The notes below the pieces were generated by a model. The model saw nothing but the letters and a program-made list of their open reading frames with translations, searched no databases and was not told the DNA's origin. DNA of 64,000 bases, from NCBI GenBank assembly GCA_033964015.1, contig JAWWUD010000056.1:785830-849829 (forward strand), read 5' to 3'. Positions 2,032 through 52,828 of this stretch are shown one piece after another. Origin of the DNA: Scolanthus callimorphus. Its lineage: Eukaryota; Cnidaria; Anthozoa; Actiniaria; Edwardsiidae. Position numbers and translations under genes: made by a program. The first letter of the stretch is position 1, and the number at the start of each line of letters is the position of its first letter.

Positions 2032-5000
2032 CTATGAAAGTAAAAAGAAAATCGTTACCCTTTGTCCCGTTGCGGAAATCATTCTCAAAACTTACAATTC
2101 AAAGTATGCCAACCAGAAATCTACCCCAATCCCCTATCGAGGAACTCTAAATTTTCTAATATTGCTCTACCCCTGTAGAGCAATGTCTCCTGTCAACCCC
2201 TTGTGGACATTCCTCATTTTCTTGTGTGCCTGTGGAAATTCCATAGGCACAAATGAATACCCTGTGGCAATTCTGGTTGAAATGAATGGCCCTGTGGAAA
2301 TTTCAGGGTTAAAATCAACAAACCCTGTGAAAATTCCAGAGTCAAACACAGCGACCCCTGTGGAATTTCCAGGTTCCTCGATAGGGGGTTAACGGATATA
2401 ATATGGAACAGCCCATTTGACAAAAACAACAAAATCAAAGAACAATCTAGGCCGAGCGGATTCGAACCCACGGCGTCAGAGTTAGTCGACCGCCGTTGTA
2501 CCAACTGAGCTATCAGTCCATAATGATTGGTGTGTGAACTAAATCCTCCTCTCCCATTGTGTTCACACTGTGTTTCCATTTAACAATTACACATCGAGTT
2601 CGAGTGGCGAGGATAGTCCCCTAAAGTTTCGAGGGGGGGGGGGGGGGTGCATATGCCAGCGGGCTTGCTGTGCACAGGTCTGCCTTCCTCTGCGACCTTG
2701 CCGGAATACCAATCGATTGTTTTCGCCACAGGTATCCCATTCATCACGAAACACTTACCCCATTTGCTCCCGACTAGTACGGGGCACGCTGCATGCCGGG
2801 TACTGTCGTCGCCGTCTCCATTCTTCTTCAAGTTATACCAAAACGCCGCGTCACCCTAAGTAAGAGGAAAACGAAATTTGCTGGCATCATCAAAGATTGT
2901 GAAGGCTGGTCCTCTACAGCGGGAACGATGGTTCCGTGGTTTCCTGACCGTCCCCGTCAATCCCAGTCTTATGAAAACGCATATTGGGAATTAGCGGCGA
3001 CATCGGCGATTGGCTGGGATGCGATCGGGAAACAGAAACCGTTTCTACTTTCCCGATCGCATCCCTGACGGTCGCCGAGGTCACCGATCGTTTTTTTCAT
3101 ATCTCAGGAACAAGCCATAGTCGATTCATCCCCGAGCCTAGGAAATTCTTATTTCGTGCGCTTATTTTAGCGAAAGATTTGCCAAAGATTAGCGCTCTCT
3201 TCTACTGAGTAACGACAGGGTAAAAAAATTTCTCGCTACAACTAGCGCGCGCAAAGACGTTTTTCTCGATTCACAGACGTTCGCCAAATGGGATGCTAGC
3301 AGTTTTTGGGTCATATAAAAGCTACCGGAAGACCTAACCCTAAAGGATTGATGTACGGTACAGCAAGGTAAAGATACTGGGCCATGCCTGCTGGGTGCAC
3401 AGAACCTGGTCGCTTTGTTACCGTCACGGTACGGTAACGATCACCTTACGTTACTGTCAAGGCATAGTAACAGTCGCGCCATGTTACTGTCACGGCACGG
3501 TAACGATCACTTTACGTTACTGTCACGACACGGTAACGGTTGCGCCATGTTACTGTCACGGCCATGTTACTGTCACGGCACGGTAACGGTCACGTTACTG
3601 TCACGGCTTGGTAACTGTGGCGTTACGGCACGGTTACGCCACATTATCACGGCACGGTAACGGTCGCGCCACGTTACTGCCACGGCTCGTTAACGGTCGC
3701 GTCACTGTCACGGCTCGGCAACGGTCGCGTCACGTTAAGTTTCGATCCGTGCCGTAACGTGTTTAAACCACTTTGACAGCGTCAAACGGTGCAACCTACC
3801 TTGGTCGGCCAAACTGTCGTTAACGCTCTCGTGAAAACGGTCCCTCCTCCCGCCTCCACATCAGACAGCTAAAAACGAAACGAAAGCAAACCGTTTAGTA
3901 CAAAAGGTGCACTTTTGGGGCGTTTTCCTTGTACACAGGGGCGTAGCCAGGGGGGGCCCGGGCCTCCCCTTTCTCGGAAATTTTCCAATACATTTACTGT
4001 ATTTGCTGGAGAAAATTTGCGCATTTTTTCCCCATGTTTTCTCTATCCCCCCCCCCCCTTCAGAAATTCCTGGCTACGCCGCTGGTACACTTCCCATTTT
4101 TCTGCCATGTGGAAAAAATCTACCCGTATGGGTAGATGTTTCTTGACGGAGGCCTATTCACTCTTCAAGTCTTTGACTTTGGAAATAACCTGTAAAAATA
4201 AAAAGTAAAACCTAAAACAACATATAAGGAGAATTTCTTTTAAAACTCACATAAGCAAGGAAGGTTGCTATTCTGTTTCCTGTGCCAAGCGACGTAAACT
4301 TGTCTTCTCCGTCCTAGAAAAATCATGAGAATGAATAGAGTCCTAAAGTGATTTAGCCATATTTGTCCATTATTTAGAAAGAGCATATCGATTGAAAGCT
4401 ACACACCAAAATGAGGCAAATCGGTTGCAACGCGACCGAGATACGGCCCGCTGAATACATAATTTTCTTTAACAAATCACTGTATTTTTATTTCAGTGAT
4501 TTGTCAAATAAAATATTGTATTCAGCGGAATTGGTCTTCCATTATTTCTGGACTAAAATATGAAATTCGAAAATTTTCAAATTTGTGACGTCACACTTCA
4601 GGTCTCTATTCGTCAATGCCGTACGTGCGCAAACGCACCGTCTCCATTTTCTTACGCTTGCGTTTTGCGTACCCACACATAAGGGAAATGTATGCGTTGT
4701 ATGTGTAAAGCAACCCTAATACTTCATACTCACTCGGGCAAAATCAAAATGTGGTTCGTAGTGCCCTCCGATTCCATAATTGACCACCTGTCGAGAAACA
4801 TAAATGTTCATTGCATCATTTTTATTATTATGTAGCTCCCATTCTCGAACCCAGAGCTCCCCGGCTCGTAACCTCGCGGGGGAGGCTCTGGTGACAGCCA
4901 CTGCGCATGCGCGAGATTTGATACAGAGCCGTTGAGAGAAAGATCTTTCTGCGCATGCACCAACGTTCAAAACCAGCCAATCAGCAAAGGTCCTCAAATG

Positions 5001-8000
5001 GATGTCACCAGAGCCTCCCCTGCGAGCAGACGAGCCGGGAGCTCTGGGTACGAGAATGTGTAGCTCCAAGATAGCTCGTGTTTATCCGACCAAAGCGCGC
5101 GCTCTGATTGGTACAAACTCAATGTTGCCCGCGCAGGCGACAACGCTAGAGCGGGAAATTTCGGCGGGAAAGTTGTTTGCTATTTTTACCGTGTATTTTC
5201 TCGACTTCGTCTCCGGAAACATCGAGATTCTCGGGAAAACAAATTAGCTGTTTCCCTCGCGAGCAGTCATTAAGTGTATATTATTATATAGCTCGTGTTT
5301 ATTCGATCAAAGCGCGCGCTCTCATTGGTTCTATCATGGTCACGTGATAAAGTACAAACACAATGTAGCGCGCGGGGGCGACATCACTAGAGCGAGAAAT
5401 TCTGGCGGGAGACTAATTTTACACCGAATTTTCATTTTGCTATATAATAAAACACTTAATGACTGCACCCTTGGGAAACAGCGAGTTTTGTTTTCCCTCG
5501 AATCAAGCGGAAAAGGTATATTTTCGAGTTAACATACCTGAAGATCTTCTGCTGTTTTCATGTTGAGTCCTGAGTAAGCCTCCACACGATTTCTGATCCG
5601 ACGTATGAGGTCATCATCCTGAGCTTTTAGCCAGCCACTTAATACGCATGCGTCGTGTTACAGCCAGATCCACGCATGCGCACATACACAAAACCACAAG
5701 ACACCATCACGTGACAGGCACAAGGACAAAATAACCAAAAGAAAATAAATTAGCAAGATAAATTGTGGAGATGAACTCGTATTTTAAAAATTATCAATAC
5801 ATTTTCATGTTTGACAGAAATTGTTCATGTCTATGAACACGAGTTCATAAATACACAGGAGAACTCCCGAATAACAGAGGAGGGACCACCATAACTTGGC
5901 TACGTATACACGTAGCTCTTAACGTTTTTGTTAAGGTTTTTCTCGGTGTTCTTCGTGCTCAATGTGCTATGAGGCATTGCTTCTGTGTCAGAGCTTTCAA
6001 TAAAACATATGCATAGCCACCCCAGGAATAGCCACTCCAAGCATAGCCACCCCAGACATAGCCAGCGATAAAGCTTTACTTGGCATCGGTGCAAGCACAG
6101 CGATGGCGACACAGCTTAGTCTAAATTTGCATATGATCTGAATTCTTCATAAAGACTGACTCAAATTTTTAAAGCAAAATACAGTAAACCGGTTCGAAAT
6201 AGCTACTATTGTCAGGTACATTTGTAATAATTAGATCGTACTATACGTGTAAGTCAGACTAGGCTGTTATGCCCACCGTACCAACATGAAATTTATTGGA
6301 GGTTGGGGAAGGCGGGCGCTTCAACTTTCCCCCACGGGTCATGTTTATACCCCTCCCTTCTACAAGCTGGGGAGCTTTGGGTGGCAATGCACCGATGCCA
6401 GCGAAAACTATATATTATTTTGTAGAAAGTTCCGGTACAGAAGAAATGACTTAGAACGTAGATAGCTGAACGGATCTGATATCCACTTCCTTGGATACCT
6501 CCCAATCAATCAGATTCAGGACGCTCGTCCTGCCAATTGCGCACGGTTGAAAAGTTACCCTGGCCTCGATTTCATGCGCGCGCCTCAATGATTTATGGGA
6601 AGTATCCAGGGACGTCCCGAATTTCCCGAGGTATCCCTCATCGTTATTCGGGATTTTCTCGCGACAGCGCACAACATTTTTCACGGTGTTGTAGAAGTGC
6701 ATTAAAGAGAGAAAATTAGACGATCAAAAGTAGCAAGAAAGAGGAAGACTGTTTAGTTGCATCAATAGCGTTAAAAGACGTTTAGCACAAGTGGTTACGG
6801 GACCTATTTATTTTTTAGAGATTGGCTTTATTGTCTATCGTTTTTTCGGTTCTGTTAGGGATGGATTAAGATTTAAGTACGGAGGCTTGTAAGTGCATGT
6901 AAGTCATGCCATGAGAATCTTGTGGAAGTTTATTGTCGACGAAACGGGACTATATTCGACGGACAGTGAGTCACTTACATTGTATATATTCTAGAAATAC
7001 TTAGTTTCCTTTAGAAAGGTTCTAGATGAGTGTCGAAACTTAGCCAATCAGAAAAGAAACCCATTCAATAACAAACCATCAGAGAACGACGTAATACACT
7101 TATCCAATCAGAAATCTAGAAATGAAATCCATTCAACAACAAACCAATCAGAGGACGCAGTATGACTTGTGTCAAGTCGTGATCCAAGAAACAAGAGTCG
7201 CGATGATTTTAGTTTTTCTCTCGTATTCTCATTTAAGGGGCTGTGTCACGGTCATTTGAATAAATTCGTAAATACAGCTCGTTATTTGTATGTAATCATC
7301 CCCAAATCACTTGATATTATCCTAATAGGCAATTTAGGTAAGTGCTGTCGGCAAGACTTTTAAACAATCTGCAAAATTTTCAAATATGTTAGTTCAATCT
7401 TTGAAAACTGTCCATCCCAACGAGATTTCAAAAACTCATTGTTGCAATCCGTTTCCATCCGCTCTTTAATAGGTTCATGAAGCCTACAATTATGATTGTC
7501 TTGTAGTAAAAGGGCTATTTAACAAACCTAGACTAGTATTTTGGCTATCCATCAGTTATTTTCATTTTCTTATATCACCAAAAGTGTGCTAAAATCGTTT
7601 TAGTTTATTTGCGTGTGACAGTCACATTGATAGTGATAAGAGCAGCCGTCATAACAAAAGTACGGTTGGCTAAGCGCTATGATCCGGATCGACATTCGGC
7701 CGGAAGAAATGTCATCTTATGTACGAATTTAAGCAATTATTTTTATGCGTATTATCATTATGACTGTATTTAGCAAGCTCACGCTCTCAGTTGCATCATG
7801 GCAAATCAGGAGAAGATGGCGGAAGTACTAATCAGATTCGTAGGGAAAGACAAGCCTGGAATAGGCCTCTTCACGGTTTCCGCCGCCATTTTGTTCAGTA
7901 GGCAAGCCGTGCAAATCCCACATAAACTACATAAAATATAGAAAATGTATGAAACATAGGCGTAGAAATCAAGCTCATAGAAAAAGCTATGGAGGCGAAA

Positions 8001-11000
8001 CCGTTTTGAAAGTACTATATCAAACACGAGACAGCGTGTTGAATCAGGATTTCCACTGCCCAGTTTTTTAACAGACTTCGGTGTCTTTGAAATCCTGATG
8101 AGAAACACAAATCGAGAGTTTGATATTACTTCTCAAACGAACGACGTAATGCCGAGAAAAGAAGGGAAAATATCAAAATTCTATGCAAATTAAGACCTCC
8201 TTCACGTAATGATTTTCGTTGTTTTCATTTACGTTTGATGAATTAGAGCGGTTTTCACGAGATCGAGAGAAATCTCTACTTGCTCCTAAATGGCTTTTCT
8301 CTCAGCCAATTGCAAGCCGAACCAATTACTGAGTAATTACACAATTGTATTTAGAGCGGATTTCACATGACTGTCGTGAAAACAATTGCATTGAGCAATC
8401 ACGAGCCAATCAGAATTGAGAAAAATCATGACTTGCTCCTAAATGGCTTTTTTCTCAGCCAATCGCAAGCCGAACCAATTTGATTGCTGAGAAAAACGAG
8501 TAGCCAATGAGAACGCAAAGCAATCGCAATTACATAACAAGTCTTGACAGTCATGCGAAATCCGCTCTATACTACAGAATTTTATTGGCTGAGAAAAACG
8601 AGTAGCCAATGAGAACGCAAAGCAATCGCAATAACATAACAAGTCTTGACAGTCATGTGAAATCCGCTCTATTAACGAGTTTGATAATGTTTCTGATTGG
8701 GGGAGCATTGGAGAAACTCTAAGATTTAGACTTCGAGTGACGATTTTAATCTTCCTTTTCTCCTACGATTCTGAATGTTCGCCATCTTGTCCTGATAACC
8801 CACTGAGATTGCGAACTCGACTATTTCAAACTCAGTTTGTTTGGGCCAGCGTGGCTAAATAAAACTGTACGTATGTATATACTCTTTAGTTGTTAAAATT
8901 AATACCCAAATTTAAAATCAACAATTTAAAAATAGAAGCAACTTCAAAGTGCATGCACTCAACGAAGGTTACTTGGTAGTTGAAGTAGCATGCTTAAAGT
9001 GATCAGTTTAGAGTGAGTTCTTATTGCAAGTTATTTATGCATTAAAGTTTCGATTAAAAGTCTCCTTACAATCTTTCCAACATAATAGCGTTATTGGTAT
9101 TTGAGTGTGGAACGCGAACACTTTTCGCGCATTGCCAAGGCTGAAAACATTTGCGTGGAAAATGAAAACAAACCACAAACAACGACGTGTCTGAAACCGG
9201 ATGGACACAAGGTACCAGGAATATACAAGAGACGACACAAAAGGGATTGAAACAGACTAGTCAGCTCGCAGGCTTTGGAGACTTGTTTTATTCCGAGAGC
9301 GTGGCCGCCATCTTGGATTGACCTAAACTGTTTTTTTTTACCTAAAACTGCTCTCCAACACATGCGAGCAGGCTAGAAACAGACGAAAGCCAACGTTTCG
9401 AGGTTTTACTTCGGCTATTGTTCAGTGTTTCAGTCTCCTAAAGATGGAAAATCCACGTTTTCACCGAGGGAAAGATGCGCTTTCGAGACCTTTCCAACAG
9501 CTACCAGACCAACAAAGTTATGCCAGCCAATCAAATGACACATTGCCAATGCAGCACGCAGCCGCGTGGGTGGCAAGACAGACGACCCCACGTGTCTACG
9601 GTGAGGTCATTGATCGCCTGTCATCGTTTTGTTTTGGTCTGGTTGCCGTTGGCAACATCTCGACTGAGCGCAATTGAAGCCTGCGTAGCAAGCGTTTTCG
9701 TGTGTTTTCAGGGAAAAGAAAAACCAAGAGAATCAGGAGAAAGCGGGAATAAGTTCGACGAGCGAGTGTTTGGCCGTTTTAACACTTCAACAAACGCGAA
9801 AAGTGTTCGCGGTCCACACTGACATGCAAATAGCGGTAACCTAAAGTTACCATGGCAACTGGTTACTATAGCAACACACCTTTTACTGATGCGATATTGT
9901 GCAAACTCGAGCTCGCCTGTCACGGGTTCTGAATTGTTGCACGACTGAGCTGCGTGACAAATAAGGAATCGTTGGCCAAATATGGAAAGCCGAAAATCTC
10001 ATGGTCGTTGTGGATGGGCAGGGTAATATATTTTGAAGCCATTTGCAAATGAGTTAATCAAACAGGGTACCCCTTCCATGGGTGCGACAAGGATCTTGAT
10101 ATGTTAAAAAGAACGAGTCACTAGAATTGAAGCCTGCTTGCAGGCGGCAGAAAGTTTAATTCATGCGAAAATACTAGTTACTACATCGCAGCCATCGCCA
10201 GCTTCGATTTTTGGACTCGCGTCCTTTGTTCCGAGCAAAAAAAGATATATATTTTCTTCTCTTCCCCTTCCCAATGTCTTGCTGCCAAGAACACCCGTCC
10301 AAAAATCCGAAATGGCGGCGACTTGATCGAGTAACCATCAATTTTCGCGTGAAAATGGAATTGAAAACATATTACGATCGCAATGGAGACGCAGCTTTCT
10401 CGAAATGAAATGAAGTCGACATAGATTGTCGCGGCCGATGGTACAAGAAACGTATGATATACACTACAGCCTAGTTTCTGAAACGATTTTGAGTCTAACT
10501 ATTGGGTTTTGCTTATATTTTCAAGAATGATAGTTCAGGTGCCGAATTCTAATAAAAAAAATCGATTGCATTGCGGTGCTAATATTTCGAGACTACTAAA
10601 TCAGCTCCGTACAAGATATGATTGATCATCTATTTAGTTCAAATAGTAAACTTCTTCATCTGTAGTTGACGATAAGAAATATTAAGCTTTCTTTTGTTGC
10701 GAACTCAAAATGGCAGCAAAAAGTCATTGTTCTATTAATGGAGTTCCCCAGGGGTCGTTTGTGGTACCATTTTGGAAACTGACGGTATTACTGTATTTCT
10801 ACGAATGCTGTCGCTGACCGAAGAGGGTTAAAAGCAGACGGGTTCGAGGTTTTGACCTTTCTATAGTCGAACCTGAGCAAAAGACGAAAGTCTTAAGACC
10901 ACGCGCACAGTTGTTAGCAAGCGTTGAGCTAATCCCCTTATTTTTCTTAGGGGCGTGAGAAGGGGTGTGTCAGGGGAGAAAAAAGGCAAGCCAGACCCAT

Positions 11001-14000
11001 TTGGCGCGCAGAGCCCCTTTCTCTAACCCTCAGAGAAATGTGGGGGGTGTGATTTAATAATCAAGTGTTCCATGGTTAGCGAGGAAAGGCAAGCAGATTG
11101 AAAGCAGAGTTGAGTAGCAGTGCTCAAGAGATCTAACCCTATTGGATTGAAACGCTTCACTGCCAAACAATGGAAAACACAAGAATAGAACGAGAAAAAC
11201 AATAGAACAATGAGATGTTTCAAGCCAATAGACCTTCCGAGCAAGGTGCTACAATACAGTGATAGCATGACGCACATTCAAACTCACATAAGGCTAGCGC
11301 GCGTATCATTCAGAAGACTCACAAGCAACACATCATAGAATTAGTGGGCAGTTTGCTTATAAGAGCAGCATTTATAAAAATAAATAACATAAGTAAAATA
11401 AGCAGCATGGTTAGAAGACTTTTAAATTTAACGACAGTGGCTTGTAGCCTGAAGTAGTCCCTTCGCCCTCGATCGTACCTCACTTTGCGAAAGGAGACGT
11501 CTGATTCCATGACAACGCACGCCTAATTCAAAAGTTGTGGCGCCTGATTGGTTGGCTTGGGAGATTTCGCACGCTTTTTTGCTTGGGGGAGCGTGCGTTG
11601 TCATGGAATCGCCTGCACATCTTACGGAGAAACGCAACCAATCAGACTCTACTGACCGATTTTGGGTTAGTAAATTGCGTAATGGATGAGAAAATCTCGA
11701 GGGGAATTCAGACGTCGCCTCTCGCAAAGCGATGTACGATCGCAAGTGAAGAGATGGCTGAAATTCAGGCTAAGGTTAGTGATCTGAATTACTTATGAGT
11801 TATGCAAATACCTTTTACTTATGCGATATGTTGCAGGCACCAGCGTTCCATTCACACTCGATACTATCGCTCGCTGAAGCTATTTAGCAAATTGATTGTT
11901 AGAGCTAATTAGGAGATAACGTGCGGCATGTCGAACTATCAGCAAGATCAGTGAAAACCATTGAATTGGACCCTCGAGTTAAGACTGTTTGCTCCTCTCT
12001 CTTTCTCTATGTCTAGTTTGTTCGTCTGACTGTCTGACTGACTAACTGTATGTCTGGGTCTGTCCGTCTGTCTGTTCTAGTCTTCTGTCTTTCTGTTCAG
12101 GTCTATTTGTCTGTGCAAGTCTGCATGCCTCGTTGTCTGTCTGGTTGTCTGTCTGATCTGTACAAGTCTGCCTGCCTGTCTGTATGACTGGCCGTCTGTC
12201 TGGTTGTCTATCTGGTCTGTACAAGTCTGTCTGTCTGTCTTGTCTGTCTGTTCAGGTCTTTCTGACTGTACAAGTCTGGTTGTCTGTCTGTCTGTACATA
12301 GTTCTGTATAACTGGCCGTCTGCCTGGTTGTCTGTCAGTCTGTCTGTCTGTACAAGTCTGTCTGTCTGGGTGTCTGTCTGGTTATCTGTATGGTCTGTAT
12401 AAGTCTGCGTCTGTCTGTTCTAAATTTGGAAAGCCGCTGGAATATGGAAAGGATGCAGCATAGCAACGGTCGAAATAGCAAGAATGCTTCAGTACTTCTT
12501 GCAGGTTGTGCCTCGAACTGTGATTTGTATGTGACGTGTCATTTCTCATAGGGATGCGTGCTTTGTGCTTGTGCTTGCTTTAGTTTAGAGCACAACCCGC
12601 AACTTATAGCCGCAGAATGGTTACTTATTTAGTGTTAATTCACCATTTAGTAGATATGAAGTAGCGGGCATGAGGTTGACTAGCTCATCGCTCATTTCAT
12701 CACTCACCCATAGATTCATGTAAACAAGAAACCAGGCAATAAAAAATGTCGTAATGTTACACTAAAATATCTAACAAAAACGTTTTCTTGGTCACTGTGT
12801 AGGTACCCCAATGAGCTATTGTATTCTGTGTTAGCTTCGTTCTATGTGTTATTTGTAGTCTTTTATCTCCGGTACTTTGTCTTTACAGAATTTTATGCAT
12901 TTTGACCAGCACAACTGTCAACTCAAAACGAGTTTACAACGAATTAACAACCTCCATCTCGTAGATAAACTTTTAGGGATTTTGTACGGTTAATATAATG
13001 ACGAAATCTAAGATCTTTATTTGGAAATATATGAACGTAATGCAATGAAATGTAACGTACGCTAGAAAACAACTTTTATGAGTAGTAAGAGAATTTACAC
13101 GACTGTTCTTTATTTTAGCGAAAGTTTTTTACTGTATCTTATATATGCTAGGCACTTTCTAAATAAGACAGGAAATAAAGGAAGGCATGCGCCGTTTTTG
13201 CTTGTAGGCTAATCAGACTAGGGTGTGGACGTTCCGTATGCATTTGGTTCTACAAAAAAGTTCTACTGGTGACAATTTTATTTGTATCACAACGATGGAT
13301 TTTATCTCTACCAAAAGAATATAACAGAAAAAAAAACGACAAATACTAGAAGAAACGCTTAATAGGCTACAGTTGCTAGAGGGAAGATTTGAAGTAATAG
13401 AAGTCTTATGCAAATTAGAGAGACCCCATTTAGTTAAGCAAAGTATTGATACTGGAACATTAACACCGACGAGGAAAACTGAAATTAATTTCGCTATGAC
13501 GTCAGATCCGAAATGGCGGTCCTTGAATATCTTATAAAAATGCAGGAATGATACAGCTACTTGTAAGATCTTGTGTGATTGGATAGGCAGAACAAAGCAT
13601 CCCATTGTTTCCTCGTTCTATTGTATGACCCTCTATTGTTTTGCACTGAGAATATCAATCCAATAGCTTAGATCTTACGAGAGCTGTATCATGGCCCTAA
13701 AAATGGCATTTTTAAACCACAGTCGGGGGTGGGGGGGACCTCCCTTAAAAAGTCCCCCTCCCCTAAAATTTCCAACGTGAAACAGACCCGCTCCCCTGGA
13801 ATTTCCAACGTCATAAAGGACCCCCTCACTGGAATTTCCATTTTTTTCTGGCAAAATACCCCTGGGAAATCTATTTTTGGATAAAATGTCCCTGGAAAGT
13901 CACCTTTTGTACCCCTCCCCCTTGGAATTTCCCGTCTCCAGACACACTCCCTCCCGTGGAATTTCCAGAGTCCAATACAAACCCCCTAGAAAATTATCCG

Positions 14001-17000
14001 TAGGTCCTCAACCCCCCGATGCGGTTTAAAAATGCAATCAGCCAATAACTATACAGTGCATTGAGTCTAAAATGGGGGTAAAATGGTATCATCTTGAGGT
14101 TGCCATTTCGATCTGACGCCCACTCCATGGAGTTCTCAAGCGATAAACGACCTCTTGGTCATTCTACATCATATGATAGTCAGCAGCGGCATCGTTTTAG
14201 CGTTTTAGTTCAACATGGATATGATCTTGAGGAAATCACTGAAGTTTTTTTTAGTACGGTTAAATACATAAACAGCTTGATTATGAATATTAGAGCATGG
14301 CATAGATTGGCGATAGAAATAATTATATTATTTTCTCTTGTAAAGATGTGCGCAGGAATTCGATAGCTGGTTAAAACTTATCTTTGTTTACCTTTTGCTT
14401 ATTCTATAACGCGTGTATGTGAGCTTGCCGCCTTTTTCTTTGACTGTTGCACGAGCAAGCTAAATAGAACAACAAGGATATAATAGGATGGGCAAAAAAG
14501 GGGCAGGATTTTGAAATATTTTTGTTCCTAGAGTTAAAACCAATTCAACATTTGATTCAACTTCGTTCAACATCTGTTTGACGCGCCATATTGTATGATG
14601 TAGAATGGGGGTGGTGGTGTGGGGACCGGCACCGTACAAGGTATGATTGATTAAAGTGCATGTGGACTGATAGTTGTGCTTGAATAAATAAGAATGCCAA
14701 ACATTTTGCTTCCATATCTTTTTTGTTTAACGAGATATGTAAGATCAATGTTTTATGCAAATTTGACATGACGTGGCGAGAGTAAAAAAATATCCATGCT
14801 AATATCATCAGACAGTGCGATTGTAATCCGGTGACTTTTAAGCATGAATAACGTGTATCTGGCTTCTATATCATTGTGAAAACAGCTGGTATAGGAAGAT
14901 TTATTTTAAAACAAAGTTAGAGAGTACTGTCTTAAACAATACCTCTCGCCACGTCATCAAAACCTAATTTGCATAAATATTTGATCTCACATATCTCCTG
15001 AATCAAAAAAGGTATCGAGACAGAATTCAGAATTCAAAGTTCAACTTTGTTTAACTACGATGTCATTTGCAGTTGACAAAGTTGCATTGGTTTGTCACTC
15101 CCGTTCAACATCCTTCAACATGGCTGATTCAACAAAAGCTGAACGAATCAGATGTTGCTCTAGTTTAGCTCAATCCTAACACTCAAATTAGTTTGCGAGG
15201 TTCACTCGCTAAAAAGGAAATGTTTTTCAAGGAGGGTAGCTTACAATTCAGAAGAGAAGTTTTATATGTTAAGCTATTTGTACAGAGCAAAGTTGCTTGC
15301 TGAAAATATTGCGCTTCGAAGCAATAAGTATGCAAAAAATTAGAGCTAAAGTATGAGAAAGACACAGTGTACAGTAGTGATTTTAAAAGTGCGCAGCTCA
15401 CACCACGTTTAAAATTACCTTTTGCTTATGCGATATTGAGCATATGTCAGTTTCCCAGTTCGCGGGTCTTTTACAGTAGCTCTGCGAAGCTGAATCGTAA
15501 AACGATGGAAATTTGAATAACTCACCGCACGAAACAAGTGAAATGAGTTAAATTACTTCTCGAACGACTGTAAGTACTTATAAGGACTTTGTTTCATGTC
15601 ACTTTGCAGGAACATTTGATAGTTTTATTGTTTCCTCTAACTTTATAATGGTGGTTATCTGGAATATCCACGGAATAGCCTGGGAATAAGGCTGAACAAC
15701 CAATGTTCCAAAGGCATCCTGGGTAAAATCCAAGATGGCGGAGCGTTGTAGACCTTGAAATTGACTTTTTTCAATAGCAGAACGGGGAACAATTTTGCCC
15801 ACCGAAGTTACTTAAGTAAAAAAAAAACAGAAAACTATGCGTGGTTAAAACATCAATTTCGCTAAACAAATTAAGACTGTAGCTATGTAGATTTTAGTCT
15901 TTATAGCTGTGATGCAAATAAAATTGTCACCAGCTATGGATTTTCTTCTCGTTTTGAATTCAATTTCACCATGTTAATACCTCTTACTGATTCGATACTT
16001 GGCGTAGACTTGTTTTGTGTGTGATTGGGTCAACAATCGTTGCCCTCCTGAGCTGTATATGAAAAGATGCTTGAAAAGTGAATCAACATTTCACTTCAAA
16101 TAATAATTTTTCAATTTCTGCGTGATTTATTTCGTGTTGACGATGATAGGAAATTTCTAAGGGGATTTCGTCGATATCCTAGAGAAACAAAACTTTGGAA
16201 ACATTTCGAATCTTACTACCATTTGCGATCATGCGTAAAATTTTCATCGTTCTTTCAAGTTGTAACATTAAGTTTTGTCTGCGATTTCATGTACATTGAG
16301 TAGTACACTTGCCAATCAGATACATTTCACAGTTCTTCGCTCTATTATTGTGTTTCAAATTGATTTCTATCCTTTACGCAATTTCTAAAAGAATATGAAA
16401 TTCTTGAAGCAGACACCAGCTAGATCAAGTGTCAGCTTGAGTTCCAATTGTTTTCTAGTTAGTCACCTGCAGAGCTGTAAATAATTGTTCTTACTTGTTC
16501 GGACATATGTCCATTAAAACCTTTTAATTGGCTGTCTCTGCTCGAAAATTGGCAGGACATTTGGTACCCTGGTAGCAGAGGTTTATTTCTGAAAGTCCTT
16601 TATTAGTTAGCATTAAGTTGTTCGCGTCGTGTCTGGTATGTCGCGTGGTTGTTTTGATTTGCGGCCTTGAAAAAATCGAAACAACCATACCAGACACGCG
16701 AACAACTTGCTAACTAATAAAAGACTGACAGAAAATAACCTCTGCTAGCAGGGTAGACATATGGCGATTTTGATCGAACAATGTTCGATGACTGACAGTT
16801 ATTTCCAGCTCTGCAACTGTAGACTCGATTACACAGGGGCGCTGCTAGGGAGGGGCAAGGGGGGGGGGGGCAGGGACATAGCTAGGGGGGTCCTGGGGTG
16901 CCTTTGACCCCTCATTTTTAGAAGAAAAATACAGTAAACATTAAGAAAAAAATCGGAAAGCTGGAAAGGGGAACCATACATGTGTACAGATGTGACACCC

Positions 17001-20000
17001 CCCCCCCCCCCCCTTCTCAAATCTTGGCTACGCCCCTGATTCCAGGCTAGCATTTCAATTTGAATCACAATAGAGGATAAATTATTAAAAAGTCGCCATT
17101 ACCGAAAACAATCTAGTCACACGTTCGTCTAATTATCTAACTTACCCGAGGTGTCGCAATTTCTTTGACTTTCTTGATCTCCGAGTCTCTCAAGACATCT
17201 CGATAGATTACCACTTCCGGTTTGACAAAGACTCTCTCTATCCGTCCTGGCTTTAGGATCGTCAAGGGGTGATCTCTGACTTGCCAGCAAACCATTTTAG
17301 TCATTTCCCATTTGGTCTGTGAAAATATGATCATATTTAAAGTGAGCAAAAACTGTTCTGTATTACATTAGCACTCACGATTGATAGAGGATAGAGGAAT
17401 GGCGGGATACCCTTAATTTTGAAAAAGTAACCCCTTAGCTAGCAGGGCCCAACATAGCGATCATACGGAGTTAAAGTTTGAGGAGCAAACATTTCAACCT
17501 TGTCGCCAAATGACGACTTTCCTTTCCAGTCTGCGGATTTTTAAACAATGCCCTTCTTAAAATTAGCTGTCAACAGCATAATATAGAGAAAAACATGGCG
17601 ACCAGATTTCTGTTATAGGGCGACAAAACGTCACCATTTCGGGCGACAAGATATTTTTTTAGGCGCCAATGACAGTCTCGTATCCAAATGCTTTCCGGTT
17701 TTTTTTAGGGCGCGCAAAGATTTGTGGGATAGTTTTAGCAGGGCGCGCAGGGAGCTGTGGGATAGTTTTAACAGGGCGCGCAGAGAGTTATGGGATATGC
17801 GGAGAAAACTTATTTTTTCGCGAATATCCCACAGTTCATTGCGCGCCGTGTGATACTCATTCCCAGTCCCTACGCCTCCAAAACAATTTTCACAGAGAAA
17901 ATCACCGCAAGAGATGCAAAAAAAAATAACGTCTGGGTACGAAACTGTGCCAATGACACTGCTTAGTCCACAGTCTACAACAGACTTAAATCAATCCTTC
18001 TTCAGAGTTCAGAACTCTATTTCAAAGTTTATTCTCTAAACAATATTTTTGGTGCTCTCGGGAATCAAGCTGCAATGTTTAGAGGAAAGCCGATATTTTC
18101 AAGACCATTTACAGCTAAATCGCTGCATCGCGAACCGAGTTTGTTATTTGGTTTGCTGTTCCGCCAGTCAAATATTATGAGCCAATCAGATTCTTGCCCT
18201 GTTTCATCTAGTGCAATCGCCTGGCTTTCCGTCGCGACGTTGTCTGATTTTAGTTGAGAGGGAAGCCAGTTGACTGCACTAGGCGAAACAGGGCAAGATG
18301 GTTTGATTGGCGGAACAGCAAACCTGAAAATCAAAACGTGGGTCGCGATGCAATGGTTTTAGCTGTAAAAACAATTGAACCTGATTATAGCTTACTTTGT
18401 TTGACTAACGGAACAGGAAAACCCCCAAATCCCAAACCCAGTGCTTCAACTAGTTACTTGTGTAACTAGTTGAAGGGCCCAAAACATATTTACGCCCAAG
18501 AACATCAACTACATTACTATTATTATAACTTTGGAGAGCATTGAGTACAAAAATGAGAATTTATGTATTAGAGCCCGCCAAAATGTTCATTAGAGCCCGG
18601 ATAATACGCCACAGTGCTCGCCAAAGTTATTATAATAAGTGTTAGCTGTACGATCGAAGGAAGCTGCTAGAACACACTTGAAAGTTGTTTCAGAGTTCGT
18701 AGAGTTTTGAAAACTGCAGTTTCCGTTATAGCAAAGCATGTGGCGCAGGTCAACCAAACTTACCAGTTTTCTGACGTCGCCTCTGCAAAGTTTCTCGTAA
18801 GTCTGGAAGGCTTTAGTTCTATGGAAATATTCCCTTTCCTTGGCTGGCTTGAATTTTGTATTAACAGGTTTTTTGTCCTGCAGGTTACCCGTATCTCCTT
18901 TGGCACCAGTGTGTTTGTATTTGGCAACTTCTTCGCCAAAATATGCGACATTATCTTGTGCTCTTTGGTGTGCGGGATCTAGAGATCAAAGGAGGTTATG
19001 GTAAGCAATGGCGGGTCCAAGAGGTTCCATTTTTAGTGTATTTACAGTTTGAATTCAAGTAAATTTGCTATCAGCAGAAGGGGCGCGTAATTTTACCTCT
19101 GGAGAAATTTAAGCTTGCGTAGCTGGCGGTTTTGTGGGGTTTTAGCAGGTTTTTATCCACGAAATGTTCAGTAGTTTGTTTGTTGTTCGACGAGATGGCC
19201 ACACGAGCGGTAGGGCAAGGTGCAGCTGGTTAAAAAGTGCGCCATTGGGGTCAGGGTGGGCGGAGAGAAAAGGTCTCTTCGCGAATAAAACCCTGCTAAA
19301 ACCCAGACAACCGGCAGCTACGCAGGCTAGAGAAATGTCATATGCACCATATACCAATACCTTCTTTTGACTGATATGTTCACAATCGTAGCGTGCTTCG
19401 TGCGCATAAAAAGGAAACCACGATGTCGTTTTTATACATTTTTTATAAATTTTAATGAGGTTCTCTTAAGTTTTTTCAGTGACTCCATTTCACTAATCTG
19501 CGTAAAAAAAAAAAGCCCAGACGATTCTCAGATGATGCGAAAATTCCTGGATCCGCCACTGCTAATGCTTCTCGTGGATTTAATTCCTGCCGACCCAGGT
19601 TTTTGGGGACTTTTTCGATTTCCCGCATTCTTCCTAAAGTCCGTCCGAAAATGTTCCGAACGCTCTCCGAATTCTTGTCGAGGGCACCAAAATTGAAGCC
19701 ACCGAGGATGACGAAGACCGTCGAAGTCCAAACCAATGGTTCTTTCGCAAGTCGCCCACGGCAGACGTACAATTAGAAGTTCTTGCATTTGAAAGAACAG
19801 GACGAGTATAGTTGTTATTCAAATTATAACATTTGTAACATAACATAACATAAAAAAAAAAAATTTGACTTCGATCCCGGCACTCGTCCGCCATCTTGAA
19901 TTTCGCCGACCTCTAGTCTTGCCACTAAACCACACCGGTAGTGGACTTTCTATCAACAGAGAATGCCAACGCTCTCACCGCATTTCAGCCACGTCTCCCC

Positions 20001-23107: not shown

Positions 23108-26100
23108 ACCCAAGCATCTTACCTAATGCAACCATCTCCAGAGAATAATTAAGAGCTTGCTTGAAATTCCCTCTCTGCAGAGAAACAATCAAGTGTCATT
23201 GAATATCAGAATGCACGTGTAACAACAGAAGGGCATTCAGCCAGACAAGAAGACATTAGAGACAGATCTAGGTATGTTCCAGTGCTGTAGCTAGCGAAGG
23301 GGCAGAGGGGACAGTTGCCCCCCCCCCCAAAGTGAAGTAAAAGTTTTAGTGTCAACATATGGAGAAAAATCAGTTCCCCCCCCTCCCCCTCCCCAGCAAA
23401 ACAACAGATACCCTCCCCAGCAAAACAATGGATAACCAAAGCTTGCCCCCCCCAGGCAAATATTTCTAGCTATGGCCTTGTATTCTTGGTTCTCAGAGGT
23501 GATGTCTTCCACTGTGTAGGGAGTCTACTCACAAAATTTCCTATATCATCACTGTCTGGACAATTCACCAAGGCAATTTCTGTCATGCAACCCCAGTAAC
23601 ATATTTGGGCACCAACATATAAATACTCCATATATAACTTGAGCAAAATGGCATGCATTCATTTACAAATACATTTTGGCTGGAAGGCACCTTATTGGCA
23701 TCAAATTTTGTCTAGAACCACATTTTTGCTTCCTCTCTTTAGTGTACACATTGATGGTTATGGACCATCATCTTCATACTGCACTTAATAGATACTTATA
23801 ATTCAGACCATGCTATTATTTTTAGCTTTTTTTTTTTGCTACCCAAAGAGCAGACCTCTAAGTCCGGCAGGGGGTTCATATCAACCCTCGAACCCCATGC
23901 CAATGGGCCTGGAAATTCCTGCCATTCTCCCAGGACAATTAAAGTACATGTAAATGAACGGCAGTCATTCACAAAGCAAAAAATCTTGAGACTACCAGGA
24001 GTTACACACAAAAAAGTTACACACCTGGTACTCTGAATATGCCAGGTGGTCATAAACATCAAACAGTTTTGTGTCATCTGTATCCTCTCCTCTCCTCATC
24101 TTTTTCAGTGTAACCTCCATCCATATTCGAGTGTAGAACAGATCGTTTGACAGATAAGCTGATCGACCAATTTCATATGTATCGCCAACTGACATTTTAG
24201 GCACCACTTGGGTTTTAGGCAGTCTGCCAGAAGCTAGAGTACCAGGAGTGAGTCGGTAGGTCTCCTGAAGACGCAGTAGTGCTGCAATCGCTCCATCGAC
24301 ATCTTCCTTCTTGGGAAATTCAGATTTATGTCGGGAAAGAGTTTCTGTGAAATCTAGGAAATAATAAAAAGAGTACCAAAAGTCAACACACTCAGATGTA
24401 TAACAGGGAGGGGGAGTTCCTAAAATATTTTTGTTTAAAAAGAAGGATGCCGCCAGTTCCTAATTTTCACAAGATCCTCATTAATGATTTTTTTCCCTCT
24501 GCTGCCTCCTCTGCCCTCCCCCTGTATAGGGAGCATGTCAAAAGACATGCCCCAGATAGGGATCCAATTTGTTGGACCAGAGAGTTAATGGTCACTGCTG
24601 GTACCACCCCACCCCTCTGAGGGGGGGGGGGGGGGGGCTGTGCAAAATCTGAATGCATTTAACAAAATGATAGGACATTGTGGATTGTTTGATGTGGTTC
24701 AAATCAAAATTGGTTTTATGACTAAGAGGGGTGGAAGCTTCATAAATTCCAGGGTGATCATTTCAAAATTCACTGATATTCGAGGCTGGGTATCCCAAGC
24801 TGGGCTCCTCAAAAGGGATACATTTGTTATAAGAATAAACCATGCAGTAAAAAGTGGGGTGTGTAAGTTTCAGAAGTAAATTTTTCTACAAGAAAAGGGT
24901 ATTTCAGCTGTTCATTTGCTATATTCAAAAAACTTGTTGCATTTTGACACCAACTCCCCCAAAAATTCCAGGTTGGCTAACCATAAATTGCAGGGTGATC
25001 ATTCTAGGCTCGACTTATTCACAACCAGGTGTCCTCCAATGAACCAAACTTCCATAGTATAGGGTGTGGCTTTCCTTTTTCTTTGCTTTTTTTTTCTGTG
25101 CACTGGATGCCGGGTAGGGTTAGGAAGGGGGTGGGTGGGGTTTTTGTTTTTTTGTGCTCTGTATGTATGTAGTTCTGGCCTAGGGATGGGAGAAGGGTGG
25201 TCTGGGAATGTGTTGTTGGGAGGGGTTGTTGGGGGGGATATATATGCTGTAATCTGTCTTTTAACTCTGTAATTGTTGGATAAATGGTCAATAAAAATAA
25301 AAAAAGGGTGATCATTTCAAAATTCACTGAAATTTGAGGCTGGGTATCCCAAGCTGGGCTCCTCAAAAGGGATACATTGTTATAAGGGCAGGGAGAGAAG
25401 GAGAAAGAAGTGCACTCCAACCAACGCATGGGTTAACAGTAGTGTAGCAAGCATTTCCATCAGAGTACAGAAACTATAAACAGACACCTATTCTAACATG
25501 CAGGTGGCCCCTTTCCCAAATTTGTCTAGACCTTGATAGATAGATAGATAGTTTATCTTCTTATGGGAGTAAGGAGATTGCCAAGTGCTGTTGGATTGGA
25601 GACACTGACACCAGTGACCACCTGCAGTCTTTTGACTTCTTCCACAAACCCCCTCTATTAGCGACCTTTATAAAGGAAACTGTCTATTCTATTCTAAGCA
25701 ATGTATAACAGCTATGGGAATTACACCCAGGAGACAAATGAATAGCAATTTCCAGCAACCAAACATTTGTGGTTCAATAAAGGGACAACTACTGTGGAGT
25801 TTATTGAATATGTACCTGCCAGTTCTATACTAGTCTGTCACCTGGGACAACCATAGACTCACAAAAACATCTCAGACAGGTGATTTTCCAAATGAACAAA
25901 CTCAAAAATAAAAACAAGTTTTAACCTGTTCTTTAGCTCTTGCATCTAATAATATGGAAAGAAAAATACATTCTGATTTTAAAAAGTGTTCTTTTTTTCA
26001 AATGCTATTTTAAGTGAAAATTAATATTAGCATAGAAAGGTGAGACATATTTGGAAGAAAGTAAATAAATCAAGCAACTGAACAAACAGTAAGTTCCAGA

Positions 26101-28070: not shown

Positions 28071-28384
28071 CAAAACTCTGCTCGCAAGGATCCTGGGTAA
28101 GGCGGCTGGTTTACATATCAACGAACAAAAATAACAAGCGCGAACACGAAGTTACCAAAGTTGAAGAAAAACCTTTGCTATTCGTGGGAATCACAGCAAA
28201 AGCAAAACTGTATCGACCAGTTAACTACATAAAAACTGCAAAACTGTATCGAAACCATGGGGTTAACTACATAACGGAGTAACTGCTAATAGAAGTTTGT
28301 AGAGTAAATCGGATAAGTAGAAATGGAATACTCGAAGCGTAACGTTCGGTGGTTCAGAAGTTGTCAAACGTGATCGAAACAGAA
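28071..28384. promoter_or_regulatory. Probable bidirectional promoter between P4HA and ENKD1
   Basis: The two genes point away from each other and only about 314 bp separate their first recognised ATGs. The interval holds an imperfect direct repeat of about 35 bp (around 28205-28238 and 28242-28276, both with AAAACTGTATCGA and GTTAACTACATAA). No TATA box at a convincing position and no full X-box was seen. Confidence 0.55.
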
Positions 28385-28592
28385 ATGCTTTCGACTTGGA
28401 CGATTCCGACTGACCCTGGTTATGTGACTAGAAGACCGCAGAGTGCAGGGGGGTATGAAAGGAGTTCATTAGAATGTCAGCCAAAACCCAGAGTGAAACC
28501 AGAAGCTCTCAGAAATGCCTTGAAAGGGCAGGGAACGCTTGCTCAACTTTTCAACCCGACTGCAAGACCTTACAACATTTTGTCAAGGCCTG
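28385..28592 (+). CDS. ENKD1: ENKD1 exon 1
   Basis: 208 nt, begins MLSTWTIPTDPGYVTRRPQS and ends in phase 1 at CCTG/GTAAGG. The IPxDP...RRPxSA opening matches vertebrate ENKD1. Confidence 0.93.
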
Positions 28593-31500
28593 GTAAGGTT
28601 TTAAGCTGTATAAGATTTACTATATTAATATGTTTGTTAAACATTTTCCCTTACTGCCTCTGGTCTTTGTTTCTTAGGTCTTTACAGCAATTCAAAATTT
28701 ACGAGGGAGTTTATTAGTTTTAGAGTTTAATCGACAGGTTTGTAGTAAGCAGCTCCCTTGTGAATATTTTTTGGCATAAGTTTGATCAAAATTCAAAAAT
28801 GTACTAGATACTGAAACAGAGAGCTGACAATTTTCTTTAGGAGATATGCCCATCAGTCTACATTAGTTTTTTTTTTTGGTAAATTACCCCCACTGAGGTA
28901 CATTATTTGATAATTACATAAAACCACATCCACCACAATCACTTATTTGCAAGTCCAGGGTGTTAATTGGTACTTCACAAGTAAAGAACACTTGTCAGCA
29001 TGTATTTACCACGGTGTTTGATCATGTGGTCTGCTGTGACCAACATACTGCCAAATAAATTGCTACTGAGTGAACCTGTAGTGCAAAGCATAAAGGTGGC
29101 AAAAATACAAGGCACAAAACCAGCCAAACTTCAGACAAAAATTGTTGCAGATTGGAGAAAATTTCATATTTGTTTCACATGTTCAATTTATCATGCAGCA
29201 TTTTGCACTTTATTATTATAGGTAATCATACAACTATTCTTGTTCAATTTGGGATTAATTGCGTGAGTGAGTTTTTCAAAAAGTATCAAAATTGCACGAG
29301 CCCGTAGGGGCATGTTTTGAAATGCTTTTCACTTAGTGTATAAAAGAGGCATAAACAGATCGTCACTCTGAAATACTACAATATCACATGTCTAAAATTC
29401 ACAAATACTGCGATATCATGGCTAGAACTCGCCAAAAAAAACTATAACAAATCATTGCATTCAACTTAAAGATCTTTGCAACTTTGAAAATATTGCTCTA
29501 CTCAGGGCCGGGGCATTGCGGGGCATTGGCAACCAAAATTTTAAAGCTAGTCGCCAAATGGCACCCCATCTTTCTGGTGACATCCACGCTTACGTGGCAA
29601 CTAAATATTGCTTTTTGGTGACTAAAATGTTTTTTAATTGGTTCGCCAATGTTGGGCCCTGCTACTAGGATAATTTGCTAGAATCATAAATATATTTACC
29701 TGCATCTGCACCATTTAATTTTCTCTGATTAATTCTATTTCACAAGGTTCTGCTCAACCAAAAAACTTTGCAAAAGAAAATGCATACAAGATAAAGAAGA
29801 TACAACAAGCCAACAGGGAGAAACAAAAAGAAATGTCTGTGGTTGGGGAGCCCGTAAAGGCTGTGTACAAGCCTGATAAGTTTGTTCATGTGGAATCAAA
29901 AGTTGCCCAGGAAGTGAAGGTAAGGGCATCATATGATTAATGTTGGTGGCTTTTAAACCAAATGAGAGATCTATACCATGCATCCCAGTAAACCATGGCA
30001 ACCTTCATTTTTTCGGCCCACCAGCAGCTGCTTAAAATTGATTGTGTGATGGCTTATGTACCACATGATGCATTGTTTATGTACTTTTTGAGCATCCATT
30101 GTTTCATTGCTCTCAAACAAAGTCATTTGATCACATGGTACATAAACAATGCATCACATGGTACATAAAAAGCGATCACACGATCAATGGTGACAAGAAA
30201 GAAAGGGTCTTCTCCTCATCATGAGGGAACTCAAAGCGGTCGAAAGTACATGACCACTGGACAAGGAGAGGTAGGAGGACTTATCAGGCTGCATTAGATG
30301 GCACAAATTGTACCTGCACTGCTTACACTCATGAGGGCTGTTTTACAGTATATATGCCTCAGAGAGCCAGGCCATTGCACCGGGAGACAATCCCCTACTC
30401 TTATGAAGAGTGCGATGGGTTCTTTAGCGTCTACCTTGAACAGGAGTAGAAGAGAAGGCAGATGGGACATTGACGGTTTATTGTCTCAAGACTAAAGATT
30501 CAAGCACAGTAGAACTAAGTTCAACCCACAATATGAACTTCTCTCAATCACGACTTAACAGAAGGAAAATTTCCTCTGTGCCAGCCGGGAATCAATCCTG
30601 GAGTCCCAGCGTCTTAACACTGAGCCAGCCATGCTTCCCAGACTACATAATGCAATAGAGACAACACAGGACTCTGAGTTTCACAACAGAACAAGCTAAA
30701 AAAGCAGTGGCAGATCAAGAAATTTAGAAAAGGGAGGGACAGAAGGAGGGGGCCCCGTTATATAAAACATATAACAAAAAAATCGATTTTCAATTCAATT
30801 CAGTTTCCTATAAATCTACAGTATGACTAGACATAGACATGTGTATTGATACCTTTGTTAATTAAGCAATAAAAGTACTTTCCAAATGCTCTCTGGTTTC
30901 TTACAAACACGAGGGGGATGTTGGGAGAACTGATCAAAACTCGAAAGACACGAGCCGCTTTCAAGTTTTATCAGTTCGACCAACATTCCCCGAGTACACA
31001 TACACGCGCGAAATCGTTTTGTGACAATCGTGTTTCTCAGGTCTCTTACAAACACGCCTTTTAACCAATCAGAATGCGCACATTCACTATATAAAATAGG
31101 TGTTATTTTCTAATGGATAATAACATTGGCATTTGTCGAATAAATATTGATAAAATAAATAAACTATAATGTGTGTCGAGTGGTGCTGAGGGATAAGGCC
31201 AGCTCTCAATTCTGAGCACTCCCAAATGTACCAGTTTACTTTTATAGACACCAGGCGACATGTGTCTCAGTGATTCAGATCCGGGTCGGTCTTCAGACAT
31301 AGTCCGAGATAATTTTTAATTGTCCGACAGAATTTACCTAAATTCGGGCAAATGACCGAACCAGAATATATATTAAAAAATTTTACAAACAACTTTTGTG
31401 GTTTCAGTGTATCTTAGAAAAGGAAAAACTGAGTTTTGTTAGAAGAGCTCAGTGTCCAAGTGGGTTTGTAGGGAAGAAGGAGTTCATGGAGAATTGAAGA

Positions 31501-45400: not shown

Positions 45401-45668
45401 TACAGGCTCGTAGCAAGGTCAAAAATATTGGGGGGGGGGGGCTTACGTGAAAAGGCCTAACATGTTCACTAGTGAAACGATGACTAACGTTTGGCAGATA
45501 GAAGAATTATTAAGCTATGCTCAGCCTTTTTATGTACAGTTGAATTGATAAAACGTCTTTACACCCACTCACTCGCCGTTACTCGAATTTGCGCTCAGTT
45601 TAAAATTTTCAAGAGAGAAAAAATATATATATTCTCAAAACTAGCCTCTCCCCCTGCTACGGGCCTGA

Positions 45669-52307: not shown

Positions 52308-52790
52308 TTATTCAGTATCGAACGGAACAAACGCAAAGTTATCGTCCTGCTGCAGAAGTTCTGTCAAATTCAATATATAGTTCTTAGCAAGTCGTAAAAT
52401 TTCAACTTGAGTAAGTTTTCGATCTGGAGAGCCAGTAGAAATATTCCCTGGGACAACACTTTTTAGGACCTGAAATGCAGCATTTAGTCTCGCTTTTCTC
52501 CCTCGTTCTCGCTCGTTTCTCCTAAGCTGTCTCGTAGAGCGAGGGCTCGAAGGAGAATGTCTTCGAACTCTGTGAACATCAGACGTATCCTTTAGTTTTT
52601 CTGTGCGATTGGCTGCTAATATTGCGGCGGATTTGTGCTGGGATTTCCGAGATTCAACAGTGAGAGCATATACAGTTTCTTGTACACGCTTGACCTGTTT
52701 TGTTAGTTCTTTACTAGTCTGACTTAGGTACCTCGTCGCTTGCGCTGTAGCTGCTGATAGCGTTCCAATAGCAAGCTGATCTTCCATCAT
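52308..52790 (-). CDS. Group A bHLH transcription factor, 160 aa, single coding exon
   Basis: A basic helix-loop-helix DNA-binding protein, presumably a nuclear E-box regulator acting as a dimer with a ubiquitous E-protein (family knowledge). The basic region and helix 1 are RRNERERGRKARLNAAFQVL (residues about 90-109), with the NxRER motif and the conserved Glu at about 95. The loop is SVVPGNISTGSPDR, and helix 2 KLTQVEILRLAKNYILNLTE begins near 125. The domain sits near the C-terminus with only a 13-residue tail; residues 1-89 are Ser/Thr/Lys-rich with no recognised domain. Helix 2 resembles TAL/SCL and NeuroD/Twist-type group A proteins but does not fit one family cleanly, so no symbol is given. 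It starts at tandem Met codons. A lineage-specific paralogue is plausible. Confidence 0.9.
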   Translation of the reverse strand: MMEDQLAIGTLSAATAQATRYLSQTSKELTKQVKRVQETVYALTVESRKSQHKSAAILAANRTEKLKDTSDVHRVRRHSPSSPRSTRQLRRNERERGRKARLNAAFQVLKSVVPGNISTGSPDRKLTQVEILRLAKNYILNLTELLQQDDNFAFVPFDTE

Positions 52791-52828
52791 TGTGCGCGAA
52801 TCCGAAAATTAATACAACCACCAGTATT

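Follow-up and report, generated by a model that had tools for sequence, protein, structure and literature searches.

Locus and gene identity

The window analysed here, a 64-kb stretch of Scolanthus callimorphus DNA, carries on its minus strand (27037-1940) an anthozoan collagen prolyl 4-hydroxylase alpha (P4HA) gene, whose nearest named relative is that of Nematostella vectensis (73%). The spliced product from exon 2 onward matches the Pfam families TPR_P4H (5e-21), 2OG-FeII_Oxy_3 (6e-15) and P4Ha_N (9.8e-10), and exon 1, with its TAA taken as X, also matches P4Ha_N (8.2e-8). The catalytic motifs HFD, RHAACP and GSK, whose residue roles were assigned after PMC9676403, align to the human alpha(II) chain (7zsc). 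The domains and this motif alignment uphold the identification of the gene in the initial annotation. A tRNA scan of the 64-kb window found none.

Exons of the P4HA gene and of its hairpin-loop array (window positions; C15, second contig of the same assembly)
Feature	Position	Strand	Remarks
Exon 1	26696..27037	-	Signal peptide and P4Ha_N start; window: stop and frame break; C15: open
Exon 2	24025..24353	-	P4Ha_N end, peptide-substrate-binding domain
Exon 3	23123..23174	-	Peptide-substrate-binding domain
Exon 4	18764..18978	-	Peptide-substrate-binding domain end and linker; window: open; C15: one A short
Exon upstream of array (exon 6 of the initial annotation)	17146..17316	-	ATPR ending, phase 0
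Hairpin-loop exon copy A	15981..16052	-	72 nt, one extra base in window; C15: 71 nt, in frame
Hairpin-loop exon copy B	15419..15489	-	71 nt, in frame
Hairpin-loop exon copy C	14392..14459	-	68 nt, in frame
Hairpin-loop exon copy D	11812..11879	-	68 nt, in frame
Hairpin-loop exon copy E	9880..9949	-	70 nt, one C short in window; C15: 71 nt, in frame
Exon downstream of array (exon 8 of the initial annotation)	5538..5637	-	Completes Ser codon: SGWL
Catalytic exon, His-X-Asp iron ligands	4734..4787	-	HYEPHFDFAR
Catalytic-domain exon	4251..4313	-	
Catalytic-domain exon	3800..3868	-	
Catalytic exon, distal His and 2-oxoglutarate Lys	2759..2855	-	STRHAACPVLVGSK
Last coding exon, with stop codon	1940..2031	-	

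Five copies of one exon

Between the upstream and downstream exons lie the five homologous exons that had been proposed (copies A to E), each at its claimed place on the minus strand with AG before it and GT after it. All five end in the codons for YRISK followed by AG, so that the last Ser is completed by the following exon. An nhmmer model of the five copies matched the same five places across the 64-kb window and no sixth at E<=10, and a search for the exon-tail pattern in 35 kb of C15 found no extra copies there. In leave-one-out nhmmer runs the omitted copy was the best non-training match in all five, with E-values of 2e-7 for E and 6e-7 for B, but weakly or partially for D (0.0015, part of the exon), C (0.058) and A (0.19, 26 nt). 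A profile built solely from 56 outside protein blocks scored 71 bits on B, 33 on C, 24 on D and 25 on the tail frame of E (21 in a shorter form); it missed A, where the frame is broken, and gave no other match in the window above its thresholds.

In alignments to 7zsc and to Cr-P4H the exon spans the hairpin loop, which runs over Ser77-Thr94 in Cr-P4H and Arg363-Val376 in C-P4H-II (PMC9676403). Each copy is thus predicted to encode this loop, also called the lid, which closes over the proline-rich substrate in the active site. Copy B shares 20 of 24 residues with the P4HA1 exon-10-type block of a fish protein (P0027), and copy E resembles the common anthozoan exon. Copy A has Asn (C15) or His at a position that is Gly in 36/36 aligned relatives; Asn occurs at this position in P0153 too, a protein not included in that alignment.

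Frame breaks and a second copy of the locus

The coordinates given earlier for exons of 68-72 nt hold, but the implied in-frame status does not extend to all: A, at 72 nt, and E, at 70 nt, each deviate by one base, and only B, C and D therefore read through in the window. Contig C15 of the same assembly contains a second copy of the P4HA locus, probably the other haplotype, and there all five copies are in frame. With the C15 alleles the array is a cluster of neighbouring homologous exons, similar in length and identical in phase (A to E, 71/71/68/68/71 nt), from which A and E depart in the window's own sequence. If the breaks in A and E are real alleles, the window haplotype has three usable copies.

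In the window, exon 1 contains a stop and a frame break, and A and E are each off by one base, which could mean that the gene there is a pseudogene copy and its array a fossil. We regard this as very unlikely and mostly reject it on the evidence of C15. What is broken in one contig is intact in the other, a complementarity expected of errors in the consensus: C15 has exon 1, A and E open but exon 4 broken, and the window has exon 4 open. Beyond the array, every exon is open in both contigs, with three residues differing between them.

A reading-frame gate

As initially annotated, the exon before the array leaves off in phase 0, and the one after it opens by finishing a codon of which two bases are already in place. 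We tested all 32 copy combinations from exon 2 onward. With the C15 alleles the open ones (5/32) are precisely the five single-copy mRNAs, and the proposed rule of exactly one copy stands; with the window's own alleles 3/32 are open, namely B, C and D each alone. The mRNA without any copy stops in the next exon and, with the main acceptors, 26/26 multi-copy mRNAs stop within their second copy. Joint inclusion and skipping thus both break the frame; a frame shift upon joint inclusion is an accepted criterion for mutually exclusive exons (PMC5740500). We consider it likely, judging from the DNA, that these are five tandemly duplicated, mutually exclusive hairpin-loop exons in an anthozoan P4HA gene, of which one would be chosen per mRNA.

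Restriction to one copy is not a universal rule, because two copies are joined in frame in 19/154 proteins, every one a fish model. The joined forms carry 22 extra residues (for example, P0030 versus P0061), which implies, as judged from the proteins, that the second exon has an acceptor some five bases in from its start. Copy E has an AG at about this offset, whose use opens E in the window. The anemone copies might likewise be cassette exons, free to be spliced together at internal acceptors into longer lids, without mutual exclusion. However, use of the internal AG costs E its conserved LxRAT start, every cnidarian protein among the 120 listed has a single exon block, and the main acceptors permit no open multi-copy mRNA; we regard joining as very unlikely.

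Constraint and splice signals

Differences between the copies fall at codon positions 1, 2 and 3 in the numbers 75, 66 and 147, a third-position skew reached in 0 of 20,000 within-codon permutations, and pS exceeds pN in 10/10 copy pairs with the codons at the breaks masked. This bias suggests protein-level constraint on the copies. Synonymous divergence is saturated in 6/10 pairs and did not date them.

Splice signals are retained in all five copies. Only 1/5 array exons has G at donor position +5, a base that 10/10 exons outside the array carry (Fisher p 0.0037). Every donor is GT and, by eye, U2-like, which speaks against U2/U12 incompatibility as the mechanism of exclusion; steric exclusion through too-short introns is ruled out by the 491-2512 nt that separate the copies. 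A search of 5638-17145 for docking and selector pairing gave 11 pairs of inverted repeats with a minimum length of 20 nt; in none does one arm pair beside several copies, and sites below this floor would escape the search. Two of the pairs have a common arm, but inside the last intron. B and C lie between the arms of a 31-nt, 90% complementary pair (13266-13296 and 15903-15933), which may be transposon debris.

Relatives and origin of the copies

Among the stretches fetched for seven other P4HA loci, 5/7 have one hairpin exon and 2/7 none; with two loci giving no match, this paralogue control is incomplete. Of the five paralogous hairpin exons, one is likewise without the +5 G, and another is out of frame at its start in the assembly.

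In neither the 120 proteins listed nor the 41 matches (E<=10) of a chimeric C/D/A query to full-length proteins did we see a close match to A, C or D; the protein set was clustered at 90% identity, which would hide isoforms. A short-fragment protein search with the alignment of the copies and their flanks gave seven matches, none close to any copy. One fly protein, P0145, whose exon is shortened, had its best score with D, at 8/24 residues. A second exon type at the hairpin site is suggested in a stony coral: Oculina isoform X2 and the transcript-derived protein P0006 agree in 15/23 exon residues and 467/516 elsewhere, while P0006 and P0013 agree in 23/23 and 419/499, respectively.

These comparisons bear on a reading that partly overlaps with five mutually exclusive exons, in which one or two default exons (B and/or E) are the ones used to any extent, the other copies being relics or of low use. 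The B and E kinds are seen in other animals, as A, C and D are not among the relatives inspected; A lacks the common glycine and is frame-broken in the window, and C and D have one residue fewer than the rest. Against this, all five copies are open in C15 and C and D in both contigs, and the third-position bias and the kept splice signals extend to every copy. We take a default-exon array to be possible, though improbable.

An origin tree was built from 35 exon peptides of 22-24 residues each. In AU tests, grouping B with the vertebrate exon-10 type gave p 0.73, and placing the window copies in a single clade was not rejected (p 0.106). The tree thus fits an inherited pair and local duplication alike, and does not bear out the proposed expansion from a vertebrate-like pair.

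Discussion

Vertebrate P4HA1 exons 9/10 (also 9a/9b, 10a/10b) resemble the anemone array in sequence and in their site, the hairpin substrate-binding loop. The initial annotation had placed such a pair at this position in both P4HA1 and P4HA2, which is right for P4HA1 only: the P4HA2 splice variants, including exon 12b, alter a different loop, betaII-betaIII, and only P4HA1 variants alter the hairpin loop (PMC9676403). The human P4HA2 variants remain comparable as members of the same gene family in which a substrate-binding loop of the catalytic domain is altered. According to PMC11868403, human 9a and 9b are mutually exclusive in cells and differ in collagen deposition; there are two copies, with exclusive use reported in human cells, in P4HA1 and five putatively exclusive ones in the anemone. 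The order also differs, with the I-type block before the V-type in fish models and the V-type-like B before the I-type-like E here.

Multi-copy clusters are familiar elsewhere, including 71 human clusters of 3-10 mutually exclusive exons (PMC5740500). Insect Dscam and Mhc and the human clusters share with this array tandem homologous exons in a single phase. In contrast to those clusters, the anemone introns have no visible docking/selector layout (pairs of at least 20 nt), the exons encode an enzyme lid, and the host is a non-bilaterian.

In the mechanism that we propose for the five mutually exclusive exons, one copy would be picked per mRNA, the weak donors of the array exons leaving the choice to regulators, and mis-spliced mRNAs with zero or several copies would stop early and presumably be degraded. 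The isoforms would differ in the lid tip alone, in an otherwise identical enzyme, and the tip may adjust affinity for peptides, or reaction rate, to suit different collagens, cells or conditions. A bolder version has the frame gate select among five cell-type-specific enzymes for different proline-rich substrates, with the B/E (V/I) split inherited from the cnidarian-vertebrate ancestor; we judge it unlikely. Minicollagen is a collagen of stinging capsules, and cells that make it might use other lids than those of the jelly layer.

Two versions of the lid exon were already known in vertebrates; new here are the five apparent versions in one anthozoan gene. They would give a natural set of five lids, with the rest of the enzyme unchanged, by which substrate choice could be mapped to the lid alone. 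If the copies are used, exon choice at the hairpin site is no vertebrate peculiarity, and its age can be tested across anthozoans. If the V/I split is ancestral, the vertebrate P4HA1 pair would be the remnant of a very old device.

Architecture of the gene and its exon array

The window holds a complete collagen prolyl 4-hydroxylase alpha (P4HA) gene on the minus strand, with coding exons from 27037 to a TAG stop codon ending at 1940. Its spliced product contains the Pfam domains of the P4HA family in family order, aligns with 7zsc, the human alpha(II) catalytic chain, at 1.3e-87 and also matches N-terminal structures of human alpha(I); the closest named relative is from Nematostella vectensis (73% identity), followed by Actinostola and stony corals (60–66%). 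These identities point to an anthozoan, and probably to an anemone-like animal. The region between exon 17146–17316 and exon 5538–5637 contains five homologous exons (A to E), each preceded by AG and followed by GT, exactly where the initial annotation placed them, and five exons, rather than its six, were counted 5' of the array. A model built from the five copies found no sixth at E ≤ 10 in the 64-kb window. When each copy was left out in turn, the omitted copy was the top new match in 5/5 runs, with the weakest recoveries for C (E 0.058) and A (0.19 over 26 nt). A profile of 56 outside protein blocks, searched against the window, recovered B, C, D and the tail frame of E, and missed A. The array is genuine and regularly laid out, an unusual enlargement of a device known with two exons, and its structural meaning is clear.

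Features of the window and its left flank
Feature	Position	Strand	Details
Copy A	15981-16052	-	72 nt
Copy B	15419-15489	-	
Copy C	14392-14459	-	
Copy D	11812-11879	-	
Copy E	9880-9949	-	70 nt
Candidate exons of a gene oriented divergently to P4HA	28343-28714, 34410-34679	+	ORFs; Pfam match in the second only (Enkurin, E 0.0076, below curated cut-off)
Long minisatellite	45660-46974		translates as TDQPTNLP / INQLIYLP repeats
Uninterrupted ORF, bHLH domain	52311-52808	-	PF00010, 1.5e-14
Second P4HA gene, left of window	C56:770001-785829 (L013, L014)	+	convergent with the window's P4HA gene

The interval 8352–8672 is a short MITE-like repeated element in which GAGCGGATTTCACATGACTGTC occurs as inverted copies; by eye, similar sequence occurs near 1540–1800.

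A reading-frame gate and its breaks

All 32 combinations of the copies were enumerated from exon 2 on, using the copy alleles of contig C15, which carries the locus a second time, and the window's other exons. Exactly five are open to the stop codon, namely the five single-copy mRNAs; all 26 mRNAs with at least two copies meet a stop codon within the second one, and the copy-free mRNA terminates in the following exon. The earlier proposal that only one copy gives a full-length enzyme is borne out by these alleles. The rule can be bypassed, as fish P4HA1 gene models show, in which both hairpin exons are joined in frame (19 of 154 proteins, for example P0026, P0030 and P0031). Because these predicted double-lid proteins carry 22 extra residues, we infer that the second exon has an internal acceptor, about five bases in; copy E shows an AG at the same offset.

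With the window's own alleles, A and E each meet a stop within the copy, so that full-length products can be read from B, C and D alone (3/32). The initial annotation overlooked the frame breaks in A and E. Exon 1 of the window also has one stop and one frame break. Contig C56 (849,829 bases; assembly 597 Mb) ends with the window, and seven blocks of >1 kb align the window to C15 (25.7 Mb) at 91.7–96.8% identity, a level as for two haplotypes, although the two gene copies may represent a recent duplication. On C15, A to E measure 71, 71, 68, 68 and 71 nt and are all in frame, exon 1 is open and exon 4, open in the window, is one A short; the breaks are therefore complementary between the contigs. 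Those in E and exon 4, and one of those in exon 1, each change a single base within a short run; the two A alleles differ by one base and one substitution in an A/C-rich stretch, and the part of exon 1 that encodes the signal peptide differs more extensively. Consensus errors are the simplest reading, but the breaks may be real allelic lesions.

Signs of constraint on the copies, and the other P4HA loci

Differences at codon positions 1, 2 and 3, summed over the ten copy pairs, number 75, 66 and 147, a skew matched by none of 20,000 within-codon permutations. In every one of the ten pairs pS exceeds pN, with synonymous saturation in six, which makes the copies appear old and constrained at the protein level. 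A donor +5 G is present in 1/5 array exons versus 10/10 donors elsewhere in the gene (Fisher p 0.0037; p 0.0049 when five paralogous hairpin exons are included, four with G), as expected of regulated exons.

After pairing of likely haplotypes, seven other P4HA loci are seen in the assembly. The stretches fetched around five of them each showed exactly one hairpin exon, and none was found in those fetched around the other two, both on C3. The second P4HA gene on C56 has its single hairpin exon at C56:778936-779004 (C15 counterpart, 17701832-17701900), and that of the C4 paralogue starts out of frame as assembled. A paralogue on C8 (L021) has an apparent GC donor, GCAAGA, after its single hairpin exon at C8:1953598-1953666. 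In the stretches covered, expansion is specific to the window's gene among these loci. Third-position bias, donors and single-copy paralogues provide indirect, sequence-level signs that the copies are used.

The exon encodes the lid

The hairpin loop is described as Ser77–Thr94 in Chlamydomonas P4H and Arg363–Val376 in human alpha(II), forming with the betaII–betaIII loop a tunnel around the peptide and disordered in the human structure without ligand (PMC9676403). Alignments to 7zsc and Chlamydomonas P4H place the whole loop within the alternative exon. The invariant Arg of its YRISK motif is followed six residues later by an invariant Trp, a spacing shared with P4H-TM Arg273 and Trp279, to which the pair would correspond and whose counterparts are reported to contact lid or peptide (PMC7948501). 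This spacing suggests that contact residues sit in the constant exon tail and that variation falls in the tip. A variant pair at this position had also been claimed for P4HA2; according to PMC9676403, splice variants alter the hairpin loop in human alpha(I) and the other loop in alpha(II), and the claim does not stand.

Origin and proposed use of the array

Copy B closely resembles vertebrate P4HA1 exon 10 (20/24 residues with a fish); E matches a hemichordate exon at 20/24 residues, the coral and Actinostola exon at 19 and vertebrate P4HA1 exon 9 at 18. Oculina isoform X2 and the unnamed transcript-derived protein P0006 agree at 15/23 residues in the exon and 467/516 elsewhere, which suggests at least two types of hairpin exon in stony corals. 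In a tree of 35 peptides, AU tests rejected neither an inherited exon-10 type including B (p 0.73) nor a single local clade of window copies (p 0.106). Searches of open-licence literature, judged by title and abstract start, turned up no description of three or more lid exons or of such an array in cnidarians, which is weak evidence because most subscription papers lie outside that set. A frame criterion for mutually exclusive clusters, and human clusters of three to ten exons, are described in PMC5740500.

Steric exclusion between copies is ruled out because the introns between them (491–2512 nt) are too long. Intronic arms at 13266–13296 and 15903–15933 (31 nt, 90% complementary) flank B and C; the pair could loop both out of the pre-mRNA, or could be transposon remains. 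The human P4HA1 pair is listed as U2AF-regulated, with branch points that differ between its exons (PMC5224494), and by analogy control of the array may be similar. The two P4HA1 lids are reported to affect collagen deposition differently in human cells, and 9a to increase under hypoxia (PMC11868403). In this gene, a single copy would probably be spliced into each mRNA and splicing errors would be discarded by the frame gate, such that every isoform would combine a common enzyme body with a lid of its own.
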